This document shows positions 13,229 to 49,083 of a stretch of DNA of 64,000 nucleotides, in pieces. Below the pieces are notes generated by a model that was not told the DNA's origin, did not search any database, and was given only the letters and a program-made list of their open reading frames with translations. Both the position numbers and the translations under genes were made by a program. The stretch comes from Pseudoflavonifractor sp. MSJ-37. GTDB lineage: Bacteria > Bacillota > Clostridia > Oscillospirales > Oscillospiraceae. The stretch's first letter is position 1; each line of letters starts with the position of its first letter. Location: positions 1-64,000 of the forward strand of contig NZ_JAHLPP010000007.1 of assembly GCF_018917965.1 (NCBI RefSeq), written 5' to 3'.

Positions 13229-13505
13229 ATAAAAAACGCCCTCCGTGCCCAGCCGGGACACAGAGGACGAGAGCGACTCGTGGTACCACCTCAGTTCACC
13301 GCGTCACCGCGGCCTCATGGGATATGGCTATCCCCCACGCAGTATCGGGCGCACCCGGCGCCGCATACTCCTCCTGATCAGAGTTTCCGGGCGCTGCTCC
13401 AGACGGTAATTGGGACGCTGACGCTTCTCTGCCTCGCACCGACCGGCAGCTCTCTGGAGAAGGGATGGTCCAGCGCCTTACTGGATGTCTTTCATCGCGT
13501 TGTCT
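13229..13505 (-). ncRNA. T-box leader (tRNA-sensing riboswitch), probable Tyr specifier
   Basis: Minus strand, 5' to 3': GCGATGAAAGAC start of stem I, the AGTA motif (near 13480), a GGCGCTG/CAGCGTC helix, the CCAGAGAG bulge and distal loop, the T-box sequence AGGTGGTACCACG (13291-13279) and an intrinsic terminator (13269-13255 with 13250-13237) ending in TTTTTT (13236-13231). The bases after the upper helix read CCAATTACC; by the spacing seen in the Bacillus glyQS T-box, the specifier is TAC (Tyr). Uncharged tRNA would bind and prevent termination, switching on the lyase-like gene. Confidence 0.9.
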
Positions 13506-13634: not shown

Positions 13635-13711
<77 letters not shown>

Positions 13712-13714
13712 ATA

Positions 13715-13800
13715 TGGTGCCGGAGACCGGGCTTGAACCGGCACGGGATCGCTCCCACAGGATTTTAAGTCCCGGGCGTCTACCATTCCGCCACTCCGGC
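13715..13800 (-). tRNA. tRNA-Leu (TAA)
   Basis: 86 nt with encoded CCA and the long variable arm of class II tRNAs (GTGGGAGCGATCCCGT region). The anticodon loop is CTTAAAA with anticodon TAA, reading UUA/UUG codons, which are rare in this GC-rich genome. Confidence 0.97.
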
Positions 13801-40960: not shown

Positions 40961-41237
40961 GATTGTTTTCCTCCTTGAAACATACGAAGTGACGTTCTGT
41001 ATTCCGTGCACGCTTCGTACGGTGAGAATCTTCTGTACACGTTTCCGTGCGTATCATTCTGTGACACGAAGAAAACCGGCGCAAAAGCAGCCGGTTTCGT
41101 CCCTGCACAGCGATATACGCCGTGTACGGAACCTTCTCAGCCGCCCGATTTGCTCGGACATACTCCGCGGAAGTTACCGGCAAAGCCGCAATCTCCCGCA
41201 TCATCGCAAGGTGTGCCCTTATCACAGGCACTCGTTT
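40961..41237 (-). promoter_or_regulatory. Long 5' leader of the S10 operon
   Basis: About 270 nt between the promoter and rpsJ. It holds a hairpin AACCGGC...GCCGGTT followed by TTCTTC (41073-41097, terminator-like) and another long stem (CGTACGAAG with CTTCGTATG, 40980-41020) just before the ribosome site. These could attenuate the operon. The leader is open in one frame over rpsJ, but it has no ribosome site and no aa signature. Confidence 0.6.
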
Positions 41238-41328: not shown

Positions 41329-42198
41329 TCAGCCGCAGGCCGCCAGCGCCGCCTCCACAGCGGGCAGGACGGCCCCCCCGTCGATGCTCTCCCCGGTGAA
41401 ATGCTCCAGTGCGAAGACGGCCTGCCAGATCAGCATCCCAAGCCCGTTGAGGCCCAGATGCCCGCGCAGGCGGGCCTGCCGCAGGAGTTCCGTTTCCGCC
41501 GGGGCATAGATCAGGTCGCACACCGCCGCCCCGTCCTTCAGGGCATCCAGGAAGCCGAAGGACTCGAACTGCCCCGCCGTGCCCGTCATCCCCAAGTTGG
41601 TGCAGTTGACCACCAGGTCGGCCTCCGACGCCAGCCTGCTCAGCGTTTCCTGGTCGAACGCCGCCGGGACCATCCGTCCGTCCCCGTGGGCGGCGCAGAG
41701 GGCCTCCGCCTTCTCCACGGTCCGGTTGGCCACGATCACCCGTTCGGCCCTCCCGGCCTGGCAGAGCTTGGGGGCTACGGCCTTCGCGGCCCCGCCGGCC
41801 CCCAGCACCAGGACGGTCCGGCCCTCCGTGGCGACCCCGGCCTGCCCCAGAGCGGCCAGAAAGCCCCGGCCGTCGGTGTTGTAGCCGTACCGCTTCCCGT
41901 CCCGGAGGACCACGGTGTTCACCGCGCCGTACATCCGGGCATCCTCGTCCAGCGCGTCCATCAGGGGCACCAGCTCCTGCTTGTGGGGCATCGTGGCATT
42001 GAAGCCTGCGTATCCGGCGAACTCAGCGCACTCCAGCCACTCCCGGCAGGTCCCCCGGGCCACTGGCTGACAGAGATAGAGATAGTCCAGCCCCAGAGTC
42101 CGGATCATGGTGTTCTGGATGACCGGCGACTTGGAGTGGAGCACCGGGTCCCCGATGACACAGAGCTTTTTCGTGGTGTTCTTCAGCTCCACCTGCAT
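41329..42198 (-). CDS. aroE: Shikimate dehydrogenase
   Basis: 289 residues. Reduces 3-dehydroshikimate to shikimate with NADPH. SKSPVIQN binds shikimate, NATMPHKQ carries the catalytic Lys (family N-V-T-x-P-x-K), and GAGGAAKAV is the dinucleotide loop, followed by NRTVEKAE, which favours NADPH. ATG at 42198 has AGGAGGG upstream. Last gene of the aro operon. Confidence 0.95.
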   Translation of the reverse strand: MQVELKNTTKKLCVIGDPVLHSKSPVIQNTMIRTLGLDYLYLCQPVARGTCREWLECAEFAGYAGFNATMPHKQELVPLMDALDEDARMYGAVNTVVLRDGKRYGYNTDGRGFLAALGQAGVATEGRTVLVLGAGGAAKAVAPKLCQAGRAERVIVANRTVEKAEALCAAHGDGRMVPAAFDQETLSRLASEADLVVNCTNLGMTGTAGQFESFGFLDALKDGAAVCDLIYAPAETELLRQARLRGHLGLNGLGMLIWQAVFALEHFTGESIDGGAVLPAVEAALAACG

Positions 42199-42202
42199 GA
42201 TC

Positions 42203-42637
42203 TCAGCCCTCCTGACGGGACAGGAAGTAGGACATGGCGGCCTCATAGCCGTAGAGCCCCAGGCCGCAGATCTGCCCCACACACCCGGCGGCGGTGACGC
42301 TCTTGTGGCGGAACTCCTCCCGCTGGTGGATGTTGGAGATATGCACCTCCACGCAGGGGACGCTCACCGCCTTGAGGGCGTCCAGGATCGCCACGGAGTA
42401 GTGGGTATAGGCGCCGGGGTTCATGACGATGGCGTCGTAGACTCCCTGCGCCGCCTGGATGGCGTCCACGATGGCCCCCTCGTGGTTGGACTGGAAGCAC
42501 TCTGCCGTGGAGCCGTGCTCGGCGGCGAAGGCCTTCAGCCGCAGGCAGAGGCTCTCATAGGTGTTCTCGCCATAGATGCCGGGCTCCCGCTGGCCCAGCA
42601 GGTTCAGATTGGGCCCGTTGATGATGAGGAATTTCAT
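42203..42637 (-). CDS. aroQ: 3-Dehydroquinate dehydratase, type II
   Basis: 144 residues. PNLNLLGQREPGIYG (active-site Arg and Tyr), QSNHEGAIVDAIQ, NPGAYTHYS and HISNIHQREEFRHKS (His) mark the type II dodecameric enzyme. Its ATG overlaps the aroK stop (ATGA-like, four bases). Confidence 0.97.
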   Translation of the reverse strand: MKFLIINGPNLNLLGQREPGIYGENTYESLCLRLKAFAAEHGSTAECFQSNHEGAIVDAIQAAQGVYDAIVMNPGAYTHYSVAILDALKAVSVPCVEVHISNIHQREEFRHKSVTAAGCVGQICGLGLYGYEAAMSYFLSRQEG

Positions 42638-43128
42638 TTGTCCAAGACCTCCATGATCATATCCGCCGCCTCTCCCGGGGTGGAATGACCTTCGATGATA
42701 TGGTCGGCCCACTTCTCGTAGACCGGCTCCCGTCTGCGGTACCGCTCCAGGAAGGCCTCTCGCCCGGCCTGTCCCAGAGGGCGGTCCTCCATGGATACGC
42801 TGTCATAGATCGCGCCCGGGTCCCGGCGCAGGAAGAACACAGTTCCGCTGGCCTTCAGCGGGGCGATGCAGTCCCGGCGCAGGGGCAGACCGCCGCCGCA
42901 GGCCACCACCCGGCCGCTCCGCTCGGACAGGTCCTCCGCCACCGCCAGCTCACAGCCCCGGAAGTACTCCTCCCCCTCTTCCGCGAAGATGGTCGGGATG
43001 GAGCGCCCCTCGATCTCCTCCACCATGGCGTCGGTGTCGTTCAGCTCCATGCCCAGACGTCTGGCCAGGATGGCGCCCACTGTGGACTTGCCGCAGCCCA
43101 TCATGCCGATCAGGATCACGTTCTTCAT
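42634..43128 (-). CDS. aroK: Shikimate kinase
   Basis: 164 residues. P-loop GMMGCGKSTVG (residues 8-18), DTDAMVEE (Asp binding shikimate), GGGLPLR and the lid DRPLG. ATG overlaps the pheA stop by four bases. Confidence 0.96.
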   Translation of the reverse strand: MKNVILIGMMGCGKSTVGAILARRLGMELNDTDAMVEEIEGRSIPTIFAEEGEEYFRGCELAVAEDLSERSGRVVACGGGLPLRRDCIAPLKASGTVFFLRRDPGAIYDSVSMEDRPLGQAGREAFLERYRRREPVYEKWADHIIEGHSTPGEAADMIMEVLDK

Positions 43129-44291
43129 GCGTCCTCGTCCTCCCACGCCTTGAAGTTGCCCAGGATCCGCACCTGGCTGGCCAACTGGGAGAGCTCATGG
43201 AGCATCCCATCCATGCCGGGGGCGGCCAGGTCGCCGGTGAAATCCAGGAAGAACAGGTACTCCCACCCCCGTCCGGGGATGGGCCTGGACTCGATCTTCA
43301 GCAGGTTGAGCCCCTGTACGGCGAACACCGTCAGGATCTCATGGAGGGATCCGCTCTGATGGGGCAGACGGAAGAGGGCGCTGATCTTGTTCCGTCCGGG
43401 CCGGAGCTCCATCACCGGAGCGACCACCACGAAGCGGGTGTGGTTCTGGCTGTTGTAGTTGACCCCCTCCGCCAGGATGTGCAGACCGTAGATCTCCGCG
43501 GCCCGGCGGGAGCAGATGGCGGCGGCGGTGCGGTCGCCGGTCTCGGCCACCTGCTTGGCGGAGCCTGCCGTGTCCAGCGTCGGGACCCGCTCCCACTCCC
43601 GGTGCTGATCCAGATACTTCTCCGACTGCATGAGCCCCTGTTCATGGGAGTACACCGTCCGGATGTCCTCCAGCCCCACTCCAGGCAGGGCCATGAGGCA
43701 GTGCTCCACCTTCACCTGATACTCACCCACCATATAATAGTGGTACTGAGCCAGCAGATCGTATACCTGCCGGATGGAACCGGTGGAGCTGTTCTCCACT
43801 GGGAGGACGGCATAGTCGGCCTCGCCCCTCTCCAGAGCCGTGAACACGTCGTTGAACCAGGGAAGGCCCCGGCTGGACACATCCTTCCCGAAGAAGCCCA
43901 CAGCGGCCTCCTCGCTGTAGCATCCCGGTTCGCCCTGATAGACCACCCGGGGGCGCTCCACCGGCGGCCGGGCTTTGGCCACCGCCTCCACATAGGCGGC
44001 ATACCCCGGGTCCCCGGCGTCCTCTGTGACCAGTCCTCTCTGCTGGCGGCGGGAGATGGCCATGATGCTCTCATAGAGCTCGGCCACATCGGCCCGGCGG
44101 GCAGGGTCCGCCGCCAGGGCGGTCTTGGCGGCGATGACCTGCCGCTCCCGTCCGGCGTCCAGCACCGGCACTCCGTGGGCCGCCTTCCACTCCCCCACCC
44201 TTCCGGTGATCTCCATCCGGCGGAGGAAGAGCTCCACCAGCTCCTCGTCGATGTGGTCGATCTCCTGTCGGTACTGATCCAATCCGCTCAT
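43125..44291 (-). CDS. pheA: Bifunctional chorismate mutase / prephenate dehydratase
   Basis: 388 residues. Chorismate mutase (AroQ class) at 1-90 with RQEIDHIDEELVELFLRRM; prephenate dehydratase about 115-290 with GEPGCYSEEAA, VLPVENSSTGSI and NHTRFVVV; ACT domain about 300-380 with the ESRP motif (KIESRPIPG), where phenylalanine inhibits. Makes phenylpyruvate. No tyrA lies in the operon. ATG at 44291. Confidence 0.95.
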   Translation of the reverse strand: MSGLDQYRQEIDHIDEELVELFLRRMEITGRVGEWKAAHGVPVLDAGRERQVIAAKTALAADPARRADVAELYESIMAISRRQQRGLVTEDAGDPGYAAYVEAVAKARPPVERPRVVYQGEPGCYSEEAAVGFFGKDVSSRGLPWFNDVFTALERGEADYAVLPVENSSTGSIRQVYDLLAQYHYYMVGEYQVKVEHCLMALPGVGLEDIRTVYSHEQGLMQSEKYLDQHREWERVPTLDTAGSAKQVAETGDRTAAAICSRRAAEIYGLHILAEGVNYNSQNHTRFVVVAPVMELRPGRNKISALFRLPHQSGSLHEILTVFAVQGLNLLKIESRPIPGRGWEYLFFLDFTGDLAAPGMDGMLHELSQLASQVRILGNFKAWEDEDA

Positions 44292-44383: not shown

Positions 44384-45364
44384 TCATCCGATCCTCAGGA
44401 CCTCGCAGGCGGCCAGGGCCGCCGCGGCCTCCACCACAGGCAGGGCCCGCAGGACCACACAGGGGTCGTGCCGCCCCTCGATGGTCAGCTCAGTCTCCTC
44501 CATCCGGGACAGGCTCACCGTCTGCTGGGGGCGGGAGATGGACGGGGTGGGACGGAACACCACCTCGAACTCCACAGGCATCCCGTTGGTGATGCCGCCG
44601 TTGACGCCGCCGGTGTGGTTGGTCCGGGTACGGATCTGGCCATCCTCCAAGCAAAAAGCGTCATTGGCCTCGCTCCCCCGCATGGCGGCGAAGCCGAAGC
44701 CCGCCCCGAAAGCGATGCCCTTCACCGCGGGCACGGCAAAGAGATGCTGGGAGAAGATGCCCTCCACGTTGCAGCCGAAGTCCGGCGCCCCCATGCCGGC
44801 GGGCATCCCGGTGACGGCACAGCGGATGCAGCCGCCCACCGAGTCCTGCTCCGCCTTGGCGGCCAGGATCGCGGCCTGGGCCTGCTCCGGCGTGGGATCC
44901 TGGATCCCGGCGATCTGGGAGACCCGGGCGGTCACGCCGATCCCCCGCTCCTTCAGCACCAGCTTGGCCACTGCCCCGGCAAAGACCAGAGGGGCCGTCA
45001 GCCGGCCGGAGAAGTGTCCGCCGCCCCGGTAGTCGTTATAGCCGCCGTACCGCACCTGACCGGTGTAGTCCGCGTGGCCGGGCCGGGGCATATCCTTGAG
45101 CTGGCTGTAATCCTTACTGCGGGTGTCCGTGTTGCGGATCACGGCGCAGAGGGGCGTCCCGGTGGTCCGGCCCTCGAACAGGCCGGAGAGGACCTCCGGC
45201 TCGTCGGCCTCTTTCCGGGGCGTGGAGGTAGGATCTTTGCCGGGAGCCCGACGGGCCAGCTCCGAGCGGATGAAGGCCCAGTCCAGCTCGATCCCGGTGG
45301 GGACGCCCTCCAGCGTCACGCCGATGGCGGGACCATGGGACTCTCCGAAGATGGTGTATCTCAT
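44384..45364 (-). CDS. aroC: Chorismate synthase
   Basis: 326 residues, on the short side (most are 350-390). GESHGPAIG start (FMN/substrate His), RPGHADYTGQVRYG, RGGGHFSGRLTA and GRHDPCVVLRALPVVEAAAAL end are all present, so the gene is intact. It makes chorismate with reduced FMN. Its ATG overlaps the aroA stop by four bases; a 92-bp gap follows before pheA. Confidence 0.95.
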   Translation of the reverse strand: MRYTIFGESHGPAIGVTLEGVPTGIELDWAFIRSELARRAPGKDPTSTPRKEADEPEVLSGLFEGRTTGTPLCAVIRNTDTRSKDYSQLKDMPRPGHADYTGQVRYGGYNDYRGGGHFSGRLTAPLVFAGAVAKLVLKERGIGVTARVSQIAGIQDPTPEQAQAAILAAKAEQDSVGGCIRCAVTGMPAGMGAPDFGCNVEGIFSQHLFAVPAVKGIAFGAGFGFAAMRGSEANDAFCLEDGQIRTRTNHTGGVNGGITNGMPVEFEVVFRPTPSISRPQQTVSLSRMEETELTIEGRHDPCVVLRALPVVEAAAALAACEVLRIG

Positions 45365-46599
45365 GCCGTTTCCTCCTCCCGGACGATCTGGCCGCCCAGA
45401 GACTCATAGTCCTCCCAGAAGTTGGGGTAGGACTTCTTCACACACTCCGCGCCCTCGACCGTCACGGGGGCTTCACAGCGGACGGCGGCGATGGCCGCCA
45501 TCATGGCGATCCGGTGGTCGTTGTGGCCGGAGACAGTGACGCCCCCCGCCAGCCGGAGCTTCCCGCGGATGGTCAGGGAATCGGCTCCCTCCTCCACGTC
45601 CGCGCCCAGCCGGCTGAGGACCTCCGTCACGGTGGCCAGCCGGTCGCTCTCCTTGATGCGCAGGCGTCCGGCGTTGAGGATCTTGGTGGTCTCCCCCGCC
45701 CGGAGGGCGGCCATGGCCGCCAGCGGGGGCACCAGATCGGGGCACTGGCTCACGTCCAGCTCCATCAGGCCCCGGCCGCTCAGGAGCTGAGCCTGCCGGT
45801 GGACGATCTTGTCCCCCTGCACGGACTCCAGATCCAGCCCGCCGATCTCCACCGGACAGCCGAAGGACCGGGCGGCATACCAGAAGGCGGCGTTGGACCA
45901 GTCGGCCTCGATGGCCATGTCCCGGTGCTCATAGACCTGTCCTCCTGGGACCCGGAAGGTCCGTGCCCCGTCGTATCCAGCCTCCACGCCGAACCGCTCC
46001 AGCGCGTCCAGCGTCATGTCCACATAGCCCCGGCTCTCCAGCTCCGTGGTGAGACGGATCTCTGAATCCCCCTCCAGCAGAGGCAGGGCGTACAGCAGGC
46101 CGGTGATGAACTGGGAGGACACGTCGCCCGGCAGCTCATAGACCCCCGGTGCCAGCGTCCCTTCCACCGTCAGGGCGCCGTCCTCCAGCGCATACCGGAT
46201 GCCCTTCTCCCGGAAGATCTGGAAGTAGGGCTCCTGGGGGCGCTCCATGAGCCGGCCGTGTCCGGTGAAGCGTCCCTTCCCCTTCAGCGCCAGCGCCACA
46301 GGGATCAGGAACCGAAGGGTGGACCCGGACTCGCCGCAGTCCATACACTCAGGGGCCGGATCTTCGTGGCCGTCCACCAGTCCACAGCCCCGGATGATGG
46401 TCCCATCGGCGGAGGCGTCCGCGTCCAGCGTCCGCATACAGCGGAGGGTGGCCTGGATGTCCTCGGACAGGGCCACGTTGGACAGGCGGCAGAAGCCGTC
46501 GGACAGGGCCGCCGCGATGATCAGCCGGTGGGCCTGGGACTTGGAGGGCGGCGGCGTGATGGCCCCCTCCAGGCTCCGGGGTGCGATCGTCACTCTCAT
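45361..46599 (-). CDS. aroA: 5-Enolpyruvylshikimate-3-phosphate synthase
   Basis: 412 residues. PPSKSQAHRLIIAAAL (PEP/S3P Lys), GESGSTLRFLIP, PGDVSSQFITGLLYALPLL, and IKESDRLATVTEVL with NDHRIAMMAA. ATG at 46599 overlaps the aroB stop (TGATG). The open frame before it lies inside aroB and is not used. Confidence 0.95.
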   Translation of the reverse strand: MRVTIAPRSLEGAITPPPSKSQAHRLIIAAALSDGFCRLSNVALSEDIQATLRCMRTLDADASADGTIIRGCGLVDGHEDPAPECMDCGESGSTLRFLIPVALALKGKGRFTGHGRLMERPQEPYFQIFREKGIRYALEDGALTVEGTLAPGVYELPGDVSSQFITGLLYALPLLEGDSEIRLTTELESRGYVDMTLDALERFGVEAGYDGARTFRVPGGQVYEHRDMAIEADWSNAAFWYAARSFGCPVEIGGLDLESVQGDKIVHRQAQLLSGRGLMELDVSQCPDLVPPLAAMAALRAGETTKILNAGRLRIKESDRLATVTEVLSRLGADVEEGADSLTIRGKLRLAGGVTVSGHNDHRIAMMAAIAAVRCEAPVTVEGAECVKKSYPNFWEDYESLGGQIVREEETA

Positions 46600-47660
46600 C
46601 ACAGCGCCTCCAGCAGGGCGGCCTTGGACATCCTGTGGGGGACGGCCTTCCCCATCTCCTCCAGGACGATCAGGGAGATGTCGTCTCCGGCGCCCTTTTT
46701 GTCCAGCCCGATGGCGGCGACGTACTCCTCGTGGCTGCACTCGATCGTGCCAGGCAGGCCCAGGGCCGTGACGGCCCGCTCGATCTGCCCCGCCAGCTCC
46801 GGCGGCGTGAGGCCCAGCTTGGTCCCCAGTTTGGCGGCCAGCACCATGCCCGCCGCCACGGCCTGTCCGTGGGTCCAGGTCTCATAGTGGCCGGCCAACT
46901 CGTAGGCGTGGCCCAGGGTATGGCCGAAGTTCAGGAGCATCCGGCGACCGGTGTCCCGCTCGTCCTCCACCACCACGGACCGCTTCCAGTCACAGCAAGT
47001 GTAGAGGATGTGCTCGATATCGGCCATCAGCTCCTTCCGGCTGGGACGGGCGGCCAGGAAGTCGAAGAACGCCCGGTCGAAGATACAGCCGTATTTGATG
47101 ACCTCCGCCATGCCGTCGGCAAAGGTGCTGTCCGGCAGGGTGTCCAGCACGTCCGGGTCCATGAGGACTAGCTTGGGCTGCCAGAAGGCCCCGGCCAGGT
47201 TCTTGCCCGCCCGCAGGTCCACGGCCACCTTGCCGCCCACGGAGGAGTCCACCTGAGCCAGCAGGGTGGTGGGGATCTGGATGAAGTCCACACCCCGCAG
47301 GATCGTGGCGGCGGCGAAGCCGGCCAGATCGCCCACCACGCCTCCGCCCAAAGCGGCCACCGCGTCGGTGCGGGTCAGGCCGGCGGACATCATGTTCTCC
47401 CACAGGATAGCCAGCTCCTCTGGGCATTTGGCGCTCTCCCCGGCGGGGACGGTGCAGGTGCTCACCCGGAAGCCAGCGCTCCGCAGGCTGGCGGCCGTGC
47501 GCTCCAGGTACAGGGGCTCCACATTGCTGTCCGTCACCAGGAAGATGCGGGCGGCTTTGGGCAGGACCGTCCGGCACCGCTCGCCCGCCAGATCCAACAG
47601 GCCCCGCTGGATCTGGATGTCATATGCCCGTCCGGGCAGGTCCACAGTCAGCGTTCTCAT
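46599..47660 (-). CDS. aroB: 3-Dehydroquinate synthase
   Basis: 353 residues. GGGVVGDLAGFAAATILRG and IPTTLLAQVDSSVGGKVAVD (NAD and Zn regions), NLAGAFWQP, and the zinc ligands in LNFGHTLGHAYE. Second enzyme of the shikimate pathway. 45 bp after aroF. Confidence 0.97.
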   Translation of the reverse strand: MRTLTVDLPGRAYDIQIQRGLLDLAGERCRTVLPKAARIFLVTDSNVEPLYLERTAASLRSAGFRVSTCTVPAGESAKCPEELAILWENMMSAGLTRTDAVAALGGGVVGDLAGFAAATILRGVDFIQIPTTLLAQVDSSVGGKVAVDLRAGKNLAGAFWQPKLVLMDPDVLDTLPDSTFADGMAEVIKYGCIFDRAFFDFLAARPSRKELMADIEHILYTCCDWKRSVVVEDERDTGRRMLLNFGHTLGHAYELAGHYETWTHGQAVAAGMVLAAKLGTKLGLTPPELAGQIERAVTALGLPGTIECSHEEYVAAIGLDKKGAGDDISLIVLEEMGKAVPHRMSKAALLEAL

Positions 47661-47705: not shown

Positions 47706-48719
47706 TCAGTCCATGGTGTTCCGCCAGGCGCGGAGGCTCTCCACCTTCTTCATCACCTGGTCGAAGTGCTCGGGGGTCAGGGACTGCTGGCCGTCGCACT
47801 TGGCGTGAGGGGGATCGTTGTGCACCTCGATGATCAGGCCGTCGCACCCGATGGCGGTGGCGGCGATGGCCAGGGGCTCCACCATCCAGTACATGCCGGC
47901 GGCGTGGGAGGGATCCACGATGATGGGCAGGTGGCTCATCTTGCGGATGGCGGGGATGGCGGACAGGTCCAGTGTGTTGCGGGTGTAAGTCTCGAAGGTG
48001 CGGATGCCCCGCTCGCAGAGGATGACGTTCTCATTGCCGGCGGCCATGATGTACTCGGCGGACATGATCCACTCCTCGTAGGTGTTGGCCAGGCCGCGCT
48101 TGAGCAGGATGGGCTTGCTCAGCTTGCCCACTTCCTTCAGCAGATCGAAATTCTGCATGTTCCGGGCACCCACCTGCACCAGGTCCACCTTCTCCTCGAA
48201 GACCTCCGCATAGCGGGGGGCCATGATCTCGGACACGATGGGCAGGCCCGTGGCCTTCTTGGCCTCCAGCAGGAGGTCCAGTCCCTCCTCGCCCATGCCC
48301 TGGAAGGAGTAGGGGGAGGTACGGGGCTTGAACGCGCCGCCGCGGAGCATCTTGGCGCCGCTGGCCTTCACGTCTCTGGCGATGCCGGTGACCTGCTCGG
48401 CGCTCTCCACAGAGCAGGGGCCGGCGATCACCGCGAAGTTGCCGCCGCCCACCTTGACGCCGTTCACGTCCACCACCGTGTCCTCGGGATGGAACTTCCG
48501 GTTGGCCTTCTTATAGGGCTCCTGCACGCGCATGACCCGCTCCACATGGGGGTCGATGGCGATCTTGTCCATGTCCAGCGCGGTGGTGTCGCCCACCAGT
48601 CCCAGGATACTGCATCCCACGCCATTGGTGATGCCCACGCGGAGCCCCTGAGACTCGAACTTCTGAGCCAGAGCCTCGATATCCTGCTTCTGCGTACCGG
48701 GTTTCATGATGACTACCAT
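47706..48719 (-). CDS. aroF: DAHP synthase (type I-beta, with N-terminal ferredoxin-like domain)
   Basis: 337 residues. The N-terminal 70 residues (MVVIMKPGTQKQDIEALAQKF) are the regulatory ferredoxin-like domain; the barrel has AGPCSVES, GAFKPRTSPYSFQG, LLKRGL and DPSHAAG (metal His). First committed step: PEP and erythrose 4-phosphate to DAHP. First structural gene of the operon, behind the attenuator. Confidence 0.96.
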   Translation of the reverse strand: MVVIMKPGTQKQDIEALAQKFESQGLRVGITNGVGCSILGLVGDTTALDMDKIAIDPHVERVMRVQEPYKKANRKFHPEDTVVDVNGVKVGGGNFAVIAGPCSVESAEQVTGIARDVKASGAKMLRGGAFKPRTSPYSFQGMGEEGLDLLLEAKKATGLPIVSEIMAPRYAEVFEEKVDLVQVGARNMQNFDLLKEVGKLSKPILLKRGLANTYEEWIMSAEYIMAAGNENVILCERGIRTFETYTRNTLDLSAIPAIRKMSHLPIIVDPSHAAGMYWMVEPLAIAATAIGCDGLIIEVHNDPPHAKCDGQQSLTPEHFDQVMKKVESLRAWRNTMD

Positions 48720-48740
48720 GATGATCCATCCTTTCTGAAA

Positions 48741-48796
48741 TACGAAAAGGCACCTGACCCGTCCATCGATGAGATCGATGAGCGCGTCAGGTGCCT
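48741..48796 (-). terminator. Attenuator terminator of the aro operon
   Basis: Outer stem of 11 bp (48786-48796 with 48748-48758) and an inner 7-bp stem (48774-48780 with 48764-48770), followed on the minus strand by TTTTCGTATTT. It lies between the leader peptide and aroF. A GATGAG in the upstream RNA (48838-48833) followed by CGCG could pair with CGCGCTCATC (48786-48777) as an antiterminator. Confidence 0.9.
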
Positions 48797-48852
48797 GTTA
48801 TCTGCGGCAAACCTTGGACTCTCCGCGAGCCCCTCATCCATTCCATCTTTCT

Positions 48853-48945
48853 TTATTTACCCATGCCAAAAAAGCCGGCGCCCATAAATCGAGCCCAGCC
48901 ATAGGTAAAGGAGAAAGATGCAGTTGTGAGGGTGCTTCGGTCCAT
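48853..48945 (-). CDS. Leader peptide with Phe/Tyr/Trp codons (aro attenuator)
   Basis: 30 residues. ATG at 48945 follows GAGG at 8-nt spacing and lies about 28 nt after the predicted transcript start. Residues 11-26 contain Phe11, Phe13, Tyr15, Trp17, Phe20, Phe25 and Phe26, i.e. all three aromatic amino acids. A terminator hairpin follows 57 nt after the stop codon. This is the classic layout of ribosome-mediated attenuation; stalling at any of these codons when charged tRNA is scarce would favour transcription of aroF and the downstream genes. Confidence 0.85.
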   Translation of the reverse strand: MDRSTLTTASFSFTYGWARFMGAGFFGMGK

Positions 48946-48979
48946 TCGTCTAGCCTCACATTTCTTGAAATTCAAGTGC

Positions 48980-49008
48980 ATTATACTCCCGCATGCATGA
49001 AAATGCAA
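48980..49008 (-). promoter_or_regulatory. Promoter of the aro operon
   Basis: Minus strand: -35 TTGCAT (49008-49003), 17-nt spacer and consensus -10 TATAAT (48985-48980). Start near 48973. Confidence 0.85.
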
Positions 49009-49083
49009 CCTGCATTTTGTAAAGATCCAGCTTCCGTCGCCGCATGGCTTCGTACGATCTGTTCTCTCGCCTCTGCAGACCGG

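Follow-up and report, generated by a model that had tools for sequence, protein, structure and literature searches.

The Escherichia coli PheL (pheA) and TrpL (trp) leaders resemble the leader proposed here in that a stalled ribosome sets whether a terminator or an antiterminator forms, but each of them reads a single amino acid. The E. coli ilvG leader is multivalent and contains codons for several related amino acids; it differs from the aroF leader in serving branched-chain amino acids and in belonging to the Gammaproteobacteria. In the Bacillota, aromatic genes are usually controlled by T-boxes and TRAP. The T-box likewise senses tRNA charging and acts through termination or antitermination, but it binds the tRNA directly, without a leader peptide. 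Aromatic genes of low-GC Gram-positive bacteria are reportedly the subject of Panina et al. (2003), and an AroR-aroF attenuator of Corynebacterium glutamicum is said to have been described by Neshat et al. (2014).

In C. glutamicum, as at the locus described here, a leader with aromatic codons precedes a DAHP synthase operon, and limitation for Phe leads to stalling and read-through (PMC11802643, PMC4046766). Compared by description, and as far as the available parts of these sources go, AroR differs in that it belongs to an actinobacterium and contains Phe-Tyr-Phe, and in that Tyr supply has no effect; neither a CGA-UUU site nor a hairpin within the open reading frame (ORF) is mentioned in those parts (PMC11802643, PMC4046766). 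The DAHP synthase genes of E. coli itself are placed under TyrR and TrpR in the same portion of the text (PMC11802643). The Acholeplasma element uORFC-13-1 is also a Phe upstream ORF before aroF with an apparent intrinsic terminator; it is a prediction from 24 representatives with at least one Phe codon from a U run, and in the available part of the source it occurs only in Acholeplasma and unplaced environmental sequences (PMC8632094). Table 7 of a database of terminator and antiterminator predictions lists predicted attenuators before aro/tyrA operons of Bacillota such as Enterococcus faecalis and Thermoanaerobacter (PMC1173090). These are tyrA associated and their kind is unstated; the term "leader peptide" is absent from the accessible text, and neither Oscillospiraceae nor Clostridium occurs in the accessible part of the table (PMC1173090). 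Leader peptides that replace a T-box within the Bacillota are described, in the part of the source at hand, as His leaders before hisS paralogues of Bacilli, which concern histidine and other genes (PMC2965389), and an excerpt from another source states that no Firmicutes synthetase genes were then known to be under classical attenuation (PMC1262725). In the accessible portion of PMC2494555, neither aroF nor a leader peptide occurs. The open-licence literature, covered mostly by listing, yielded no description of a leader-peptide family at DAHP synthase or aro genes of Clostridia. To the extent that these partial sources allow, ribosome-mediated attenuation and the DAHP synthase leaders of Corynebacterium are known and the aroF leader family in Clostridia is new. 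Leader-peptide control of the first aromatic step would then pass from a few isolated cases to a seemingly common arrangement in Clostridia.

The leader region and the operon behind it

The window (the whole 64,000-nt stretch of Pseudoflavonifractor sp. MSJ-37 DNA that was analyzed) carries on its minus strand, in the interval that separates a TatD-linked radical SAM gene from aroF, a promoter, a 30-codon leader and a hairpin terminator, followed by a complete shikimate operon with pheA, as read from the sequence (Table 1). The promoter elements are separated by a spacer of 17 nt, and transcription would start at about position 48973. The leader ATG is preceded by GAGG 8 nt upstream, and the predicted peptide, MDRSTLTTASFSFTYGWARFMGAGFFGMGK, ends at a stop codon and has aromatic residues at positions 11, 13, 15, 17, 20, 25 and 26 (five Phe, one Tyr and one Trp). 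A promoter, a ribosome site, a 30-residue peptide with seven aromatic codons within residues 11 to 26 and a terminator before aroF had all been claimed in the preliminary description, and checking of the letters confirmed each of them. The locus thus has the short ORF expected of an attenuator, placed after the promoter and ahead of the structural genes and equipped with a start codon and a ribosome site; its translation is putative. A generic consensus scan returned no promoters and no terminators at the locus (0.5 and 0.5 in shuffled sequence) because its rules reject a -35 box with three of six matches and because the terminator stem has internal mismatches.

Table 1. Features of the aroF leader and operon, in window coordinates
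Feature	Positions	Strand	Basis
-35 element TTGCAT	49003..49008	-	Read directly; weak, 3/6 matches
-10 element TATAAT	48980..48985	-	Read directly
Leader peptide ORF, 30 codons + TAA	48853..48945	-	Sequence; counterparts upstream of aroF in related genomes
Region 1, CCCTCACAACTGCATC, potential partner of region 2 in a protector stem	48917..48932	-	Fold; letters conserved in LTTAS group
Hairpin P3 inside ORF, GGCTGGGCTC-GATTTAT-GGGCGCCGGCT, then TTTTT	48873..48900	-	Fold, synonymous test, covariation
Codon pair CGA-TTT (Arg19-Phe20), nearly fixed	48886..48891	-	Frequency in leaders versus window genes
Region 2 (GATGAG ... CGCG), antiterminator 5' strand	48824..48838	-	Complementarity, fold
Region 3, CGCGCTCATC, antiterminator 3' strand, within terminator 5' half	48777..48786	-	Complementarity, fold
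Intrinsic terminator hairpin	48748..48796	-	-35.2 kcal/mol; main stem covaries in relatives
aroF (DAHP synthase)	47706..48719	-	NF006421, 498 bits
aroB	46599..47660	-	TIGR01357
aroA	45361..46740	-	TIGR01356, match from residue 59
aroC	44384..45364	-	NF003793, match in two stretches
pheA (chorismate mutase-prephenate dehydratase)	43125..44291	-	NF008865, 218.4 bits, cut-off 219; NF007910
aroK	42634..43146	-	NF010553, 118 bits, cut-off 204 not reached
aroQ (type II dehydroquinase)	42224..42634	-	PF01220, 200 bits
aroE	41329..42282	-	TIGR00507, match from residue 40

The gene order aroF-aroB-aroA-aroC-pheA-aroK-aroQ-aroE provides all seven shikimate steps plus the enzyme of the Phe branch, and each of these genes was matched by profiles, so that the operon may be called complete, as had been claimed. 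The true start of aroA probably lies downstream of the first GTG of its ORF, and that of aroE is probably also farther downstream. The closest named aroF genes are those of Candidatus Flavonifractor intestinipullorum (91% identity) and Pseudoflavonifractor gallinarum (90%). On the 3' side of aroE, the minus strand carries an S10-Clostridia ribosomal leader (RF03136) at window positions 41141-41212; the S10 ribosomal protein operon is probably next, with ORF sizes that fit.

The leader RNA from 48973 to 48719, whose fold the preliminary description had suggested as a check, folds at -105.3 kcal/mol (z -6.32), and none of 200 shuffles was equally stable. The protector stem between regions 1 and 2 occurs in this fold. 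Compared with synonymous versions, the whole leader ORF had no extra stability (mean z +0.29, with 9 of 60 leaders below -1), and since the ORF as a whole has no excess structure, that test lends the protector stem no support.

Conservation of the leader and its RNA elements

Upstream regions of aroF relatives (121 distinct sequences) were searched for ORFs of 18 to 60 codons starting with ATG, and aromatic residues were counted in 18 residues. ORFs with at least 5, 6 and 7 aromatics were present in 104, 96 and 80 of the 121 regions, respectively, compared with 15, 4 and 0 of their reverse complements and 61, 15 and 7 of 605 shuffled regions; because the actual regions far exceed both controls, the aromatic leader is not a product of chance. 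Where aroF identity was at least 70%, 57 of 65 upstream regions had an ORF reaching the lowest of these thresholds (5 or more aromatics in 18 residues). Many orthologues, including that of Flavonifractor plautii ATCC 29863 (L020), carry the same leader, ...LTTASFxFxYGWARFMGAGFFGMGK, and remoter aroF genes in Clostridium, Acetobacterium, Sporomusa, Pelosinus and Christensenella are preceded by dissimilar but aromatic-rich leaders. No such leader was found at the aroF orthologues L013, L023, L027, L107, L108, L123, L124 and L129; L115 had only 7 bases of upstream sequence. NCBIfam and Pfam searches with six leader peptides gave no match over any cut-off. In a class-wide draw, aroF was matched in 110 of 147 genomes, and 58 of 88 distinct upstream regions (59 of 90 rows) reached seven aromatics, as did none of the reverse complements. 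Those 90 rows were the higher-scoring ones among the listed matches, and nearer relatives are therefore overrepresented among them; two regions are doubled, which leaves 88, and four overlap the earlier set. A doubled MIFFNIM... ORF in the class-wide set is probably spurious.

The comparison of relatives that the preliminary description had proposed thus found the reading frame, the aromatic codons and the terminator conserved and a competing antiterminator present. A cluster of codons for end products of the pathway, conserved in relatives, is a further property of an attenuator seen at this locus.

For closer comparison, 60 "window-type" leaders were picked by an R-F peptide motif. Nine leaders were excluded by name (L054, L057, L061, L070, L071, L073, L081, L117 and L137), and six with an early R-F or none (L121, L127, L128, L040, L134 and L142) also fell outside the set. 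Terminators of the relatives were located with a single-hairpin finder. The resulting alignment, A1, contained 59 leaders; L025, a near copy of L109, was omitted. The terminator of L130 was shortened for A1, and this leader was dropped from the species-swap, ribosome-mask and antiterminator-core counts (n = 59) and retained in the synonymous test (n = 60).

An intrinsic terminator lies between the leader ORF and the first gene. In A1, its main stem was paired in 96.9% of cells, and 10 of 12 pairs had both partners altered in one or more leaders; the corresponding values for hairpin P3 were 86.9% and 4 of 10 pairs. For the two hairpins jointly, 15 of 23 pairs had changes on both sides, with a covariation score of 0.303 against 0.149 in shuffled alignments and 0.03 to 0.08 when partners were slid; none of 500 shuffles reached the observed score, a result that is not a probability because the aligned rows are related and not independent. 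The U-tract of the window terminator is short, with TTT at 48747-48745 and a T run of only four. P3 was more stable than the mean of randomized synonymous versions encoding the same peptide in 59 of 60 leaders, 44 of them at z below -1; P3 of the window itself had z -0.91. Together with the TTTTT that follows it, P3 is a candidate RNA polymerase pause site.

The preliminary description had offered region 2 (GATGAG/CGCG) as a candidate antiterminator strand. The pairing of GATGAG at 48838-48833 with CTCATC is real as complementarity, and it appears in the minimum-energy fold of 48855-48777, that is, before the second terminator arm exists; this stretch alone had z -1.22, with 23 of 200 shuffles as good. 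The core is complementary at six of six positions in 47 of the 59 leaders and at five of six in another 11, compared with 19.3% reaching six of six in the shuffle control. A mutually exclusive antiterminator that uses part of the 5' arm of the terminator is therefore present. When region 3 was swapped between species, the energy of the pairing with region 2 went from -12.6 (own) to -11.8 kcal/mol (swapped), the leader's own pairing was better than the swapped mean in 33 of 59 cases and the median rank was 0.43; because the core is nearly invariant, swapping hardly weakens the pairing and the test is uninformative. Among distant leaders, 23 of 44 had the pairing at z below -1. The antiterminator is long and nearly perfect in Clostridium zeae (L049), C. 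guangxiense (L052) and C. tetanomorphum (L055), where the 3' end of the leader ORF contains it.

Clostridium-type leaders upstream of aroF in L055, L062, L225 and L232 end in Ser-Asn-Glu. This ending could encode an antiterminator strand AATGAG, the letters of which were seen for L055 and are deduced from the peptide for the others; with AATGAG inside the ORF, a finishing ribosome would cover the antiterminator strand.

Amino acids and codons of the leader

The preliminary description proposed that a single leader measures all three aromatic amino acids at once, a reading that is only partly borne out. Among the 60 homologous leaders, Phe occurs in 60, Trp in 52 and Tyr in 47, and the presence of all three in 39 favors the proposal; the absence of Tyr from 13 leaders (including three of the same genus, L087, L088 and L089) and of Trp from 8, the partly structural nature of the Trp codon and a separate Tyr-rich leader before aroF2-tyrA speak against it. 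The Trp site is aromatic in 57 of 60 leaders (49 Trp, 5 Tyr and 3 Phe, with Cys in the other 3), and since its codon lies within a conserved RNA stem, part of this conservation is structural. Phe and Tyr alternate at several sites, for example, 28 Phe to 17 Tyr and 29 Phe to 18 Tyr among the 60. As regards the signal only, a leader that senses Phe alone, with the Tyr and Trp codons as passengers as Tyr is reported to be in AroR, comes just short of an even chance. It accords with the constancy of Phe beside the gaps in Tyr and Trp, with the presence of pheA in the operon and with the Corynebacterium precedent, as the accessible parts of those sources give it, but not with the alternation of Phe with Tyr, the replacement of Trp by Tyr or Phe in 8 leaders and the retention of all three amino acids in the 39.

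The genome has a second DAHP synthase gene, aroF2 (L148:7749-8768, minus strand; G000:C4), followed by a tyrA-like gene that is prephenate-dehydrogenase-like at 159 bits, under the cut-offs of the models. Its leader, MIRTVGLGYGYYRCYYFSSGVSACP, is Tyr rich and has a terminator of -29 kcal/mol; the region 2:3 pairing test found no antiterminator in it and gave z below -1 in none of the ten Tyr-type aroF2 leaders of the genus. The genus aroF leaders (n = 9, the locus being cut in the tenth genome) contain 45 Phe, 7 Tyr and 10 Trp, compared with 22 Phe, 54 Tyr and 1 Trp in the aroF2 leaders (n = 10; Fisher p 7e-11, with rows that are not independent). By leader composition, therefore, the aroF operon leans to Phe and carries pheA, and the aroF2 operon leans to Tyr and carries tyrA.

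Codon choice in the leaders is itself unusual at one site. The pair CGA-TTT is found in 58 of the 60 near leaders and in 14 of the 49 far ones, and all 72 of these 72 instances are in frame; the near exceptions are L040, which has no R-F, and L041, which has CGC-TTT. Over all RF dipeptides of the near leaders, Arg is encoded by CGA in 58, CGT in 3 and CGC in 2, and at the first RF of 78 leaders taken with no motif selection, CGA is used in 69 and TTT in 75. The composition test on 60 leaders anchored the site by CG[AC]TTT, with no row lost, and the CGA-TTT count was made without the anchor. In ten window genes, CGA accounts for 5 of 216 Arg codons and TTT for 6 of 85 Phe codons. Neither stem nor peptide demands this choice in the window type because the third base of CGA and the TTT lie in the loop. 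Outside the fixed site, U-ending aromatic codons are also preferred, with TTT at 169 of 233 against the same 6 of 85 and TAT at 63 of 80 against 29 of 73 in window genes, the reference in this comparison being the codon usage of a single genome.

CGA-TTT stands 51.0 nt (sd 6.8) from the ATG in near leaders (n = 62) and 24 nt (sd 9.0) from it in far leaders (n = 10), and its distance to the terminator loop is 111.7 nt (sd 8.4) in near and 115.5 nt (sd 16.4, range 93-157) in far leaders. In the class-wide set, the first R-F was CGATTT in four of five new leaders (L235, L199, L226 and L222), at 143, 120, 111 and 150 nt from the terminator loop, so that spacing there is looser; the CGCTTT of L278 is not part of the aromatic run, and L234 has one CGATTT out of frame. 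Among the 38 of 59 genome tRNA genes listed, the only CGA-reading tRNA is tRNA-Arg(ACG), and CGA is probably read by I-A wobble. A precedent comes from a his-leader reporter, the host of which is said to be Salmonella. In the accessible part of that report, ribosomes move more slowly at CGA, which relieves attenuation (PMC4046918). From the rarity of CGA, the fixed pair, its spacing and this precedent, we propose a built-in slow-codon pause, which would hold the ribosome at a point that leaves region 2 free and would raise the sensitivity of the switch to a slight fall in Phe-tRNA. An attenuator tuned by codon speed, with a fixed pause (CGA before UUU, about 112 nt from the terminator loop and 18 to more than 50 nt from the start) and U-ending aromatic codons, found in Oscillospiraceae, Christensenella and some other Clostridia and with separate Phe- and Tyr-leaning leaders on two DAHP synthase operons, is put forward tentatively, as a possibility on which we would not wager. 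Given the near fixation of CGA-UUU, it bears on whether the pace of the ribosome at one codon of a natural switch is tuned by selection.

For the CGAUUU site alone, an RNA motif rather than a codon pair, namely a hairpin loop bound by a protein or another RNA, would explain why the letters form the P3 loop in the window type and are more constant there than in the stem. We consider this less likely than not, for CGAUUU is also present in leaders that do not fold this hairpin (L070, of Christensenella, and L054, L071, L073 and L081), it is consistently in frame, with the single exception met later in L234, and a crude pattern scan of six leaders for the complement of CGATTTA gave no consistent partner. 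YCGATTTAYG was also considered as a general genome motif and rejected, with three matches against three in the reversed control; one copy, at C1:24577, precedes a T-box by about 150 nt, and inspection by eye showed no aromatic leader there.

Proposed mechanism and other control elements

The aroF leader is very probably a ribosome-mediated transcription attenuator of the trpL/pheL type, as judged from sequence. This reading draws on the leader, its codons, the terminator, the antiterminator complementarity, covariation and wide conservation; that the leader is translated, that the ribosome stalls and the polymerase pauses, which way the response runs and how much Phe, Tyr and Trp each count are deduced. 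Polymerase would start near 48973, and a ribosome would enter the 30-codon leader, with P3 and the T-rich stretch after it probably pausing the polymerase and keeping the two in step. When charged aromatic tRNAs, that for Phe above all, are plentiful, the ribosome would reach the stop codon beside region 2 and keep that region unavailable, so that the terminator forms and shuts off the aro operon. Under shortage of these tRNAs, the ribosome would stall within codons 11 to 26, the slow CGA codon before Phe20 probably sharpening the stall; region 2 could then pair through GATGAG with CTCATC of region 3 ahead of the second terminator arm, and transcription would continue through the operon from aroF to aroE.

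Ribosome masks were applied in silico by folding the transcript as far as the terminator loop, with a ribosome footprint placed at each codon in turn, and averaging over 59 leaders. With no pairs allowed to span the ribosome, 12 to 13 region 2:3 pairs were expected for an A-site from one codon before to ten codons after CGA; the value fell to 8.8-10.4 five to two codons ahead of CGA and was 7.4 at the stop codon. With spanning pairs allowed, early stalls gave about 10 pairs and the stop codon 3.6; stalls at or after CGA-TTT gave 7 to 8, hardly more than the 6.7 obtained with no ribosome, which counts against the attenuator reading. The antiterminator was favored even without a ribosome in L020, L026 and L043. 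On these results, Phe11 and Phe13 look to be the safest stall sites, and the role of Trp17, Phe20 and Phe25-26 in stalling would depend on geometry.

TnaC is an arrest peptide that responds to Trp, and the peptide encoded here (GWARF.GAG.F) might similarly arrest in the exit tunnel on sensing a free aromatic amino acid. The peptide is conserved beyond its aromatics, at W, A/T, R, F and G positions, but much of this can be attributed to the RNA, in which these residues build P3 and stem changes are compensatory; Arg and Phe each keep one synonymous codon although others would give the identical peptide, and distant leaders have little in common beyond aromatic richness. Nascent-chain arrest is therefore improbable. 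A T-box, a riboswitch or a TRAP-controlled terminator, with the ORF incidental, would be the usual expectation for aromatic genes of Bacillota, and one of 18 aroF loci scanned does have a T-box: at aroF of Faecalitalea cylindroides (L053:3728-3964, plus strand, 125.8 bits), with no aromatic leader found upstream of the gene. At the window locus, however, the T-box model RF00230 gave no match in 48700-49060 at E up to 5, the Rfam Trp leader and other cis-regulatory families gave no match to the aroF leader, and a permissive Rfam scan of the leader returned only two microRNA matches far under their cut-offs. The genome has no TRAP gene (PF02081; Bacillus subtilis served as positive control), and with the aromatic ORF far above chance, we regard control of this kind as very nearly out of the question and retain ribosome-mediated attenuation.

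T-boxes are used elsewhere in the genome, with 16 matches, of which 6 are over the Rfam cut-off. They include T-boxes at a trpE-like gene, a TrpX-like transporter gene (both scoring below NCBI's own cut-offs) and pheS, and none at either aroF. Within this genome, the contrast between leader-peptide and T-box control holds, with T-boxes at these genes, none at either aroF and no TRAP gene. The contrast with Gram-negative bacteria drawn in the preliminary description is too sharp: DAHP synthase leader peptides have been published for Corynebacterium and proposed for Acholeplasma, and leader peptides have been published for hisS in Bacilli, as the portions of those sources at hand report. The distribution suggests a division of labor in one genome, with single-tRNA T-boxes at Trp-branch genes and pheS and leaders at the shared pathway; leader peptides can sum several amino acids, and a T-box senses one tRNA.

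Within the window, a T-box match at 13260-13504 on the minus strand (87 bits, below the Rfam cut-off of 93) lies between tRNA genes (Met, 13635-13711; Leu, 13715-13800) and a gene of the tryptophanase/tyrosine phenol-lyase family. By eye, its specifier may be UAC (Tyr), and a T-box before a degradative lyase seems unusual.
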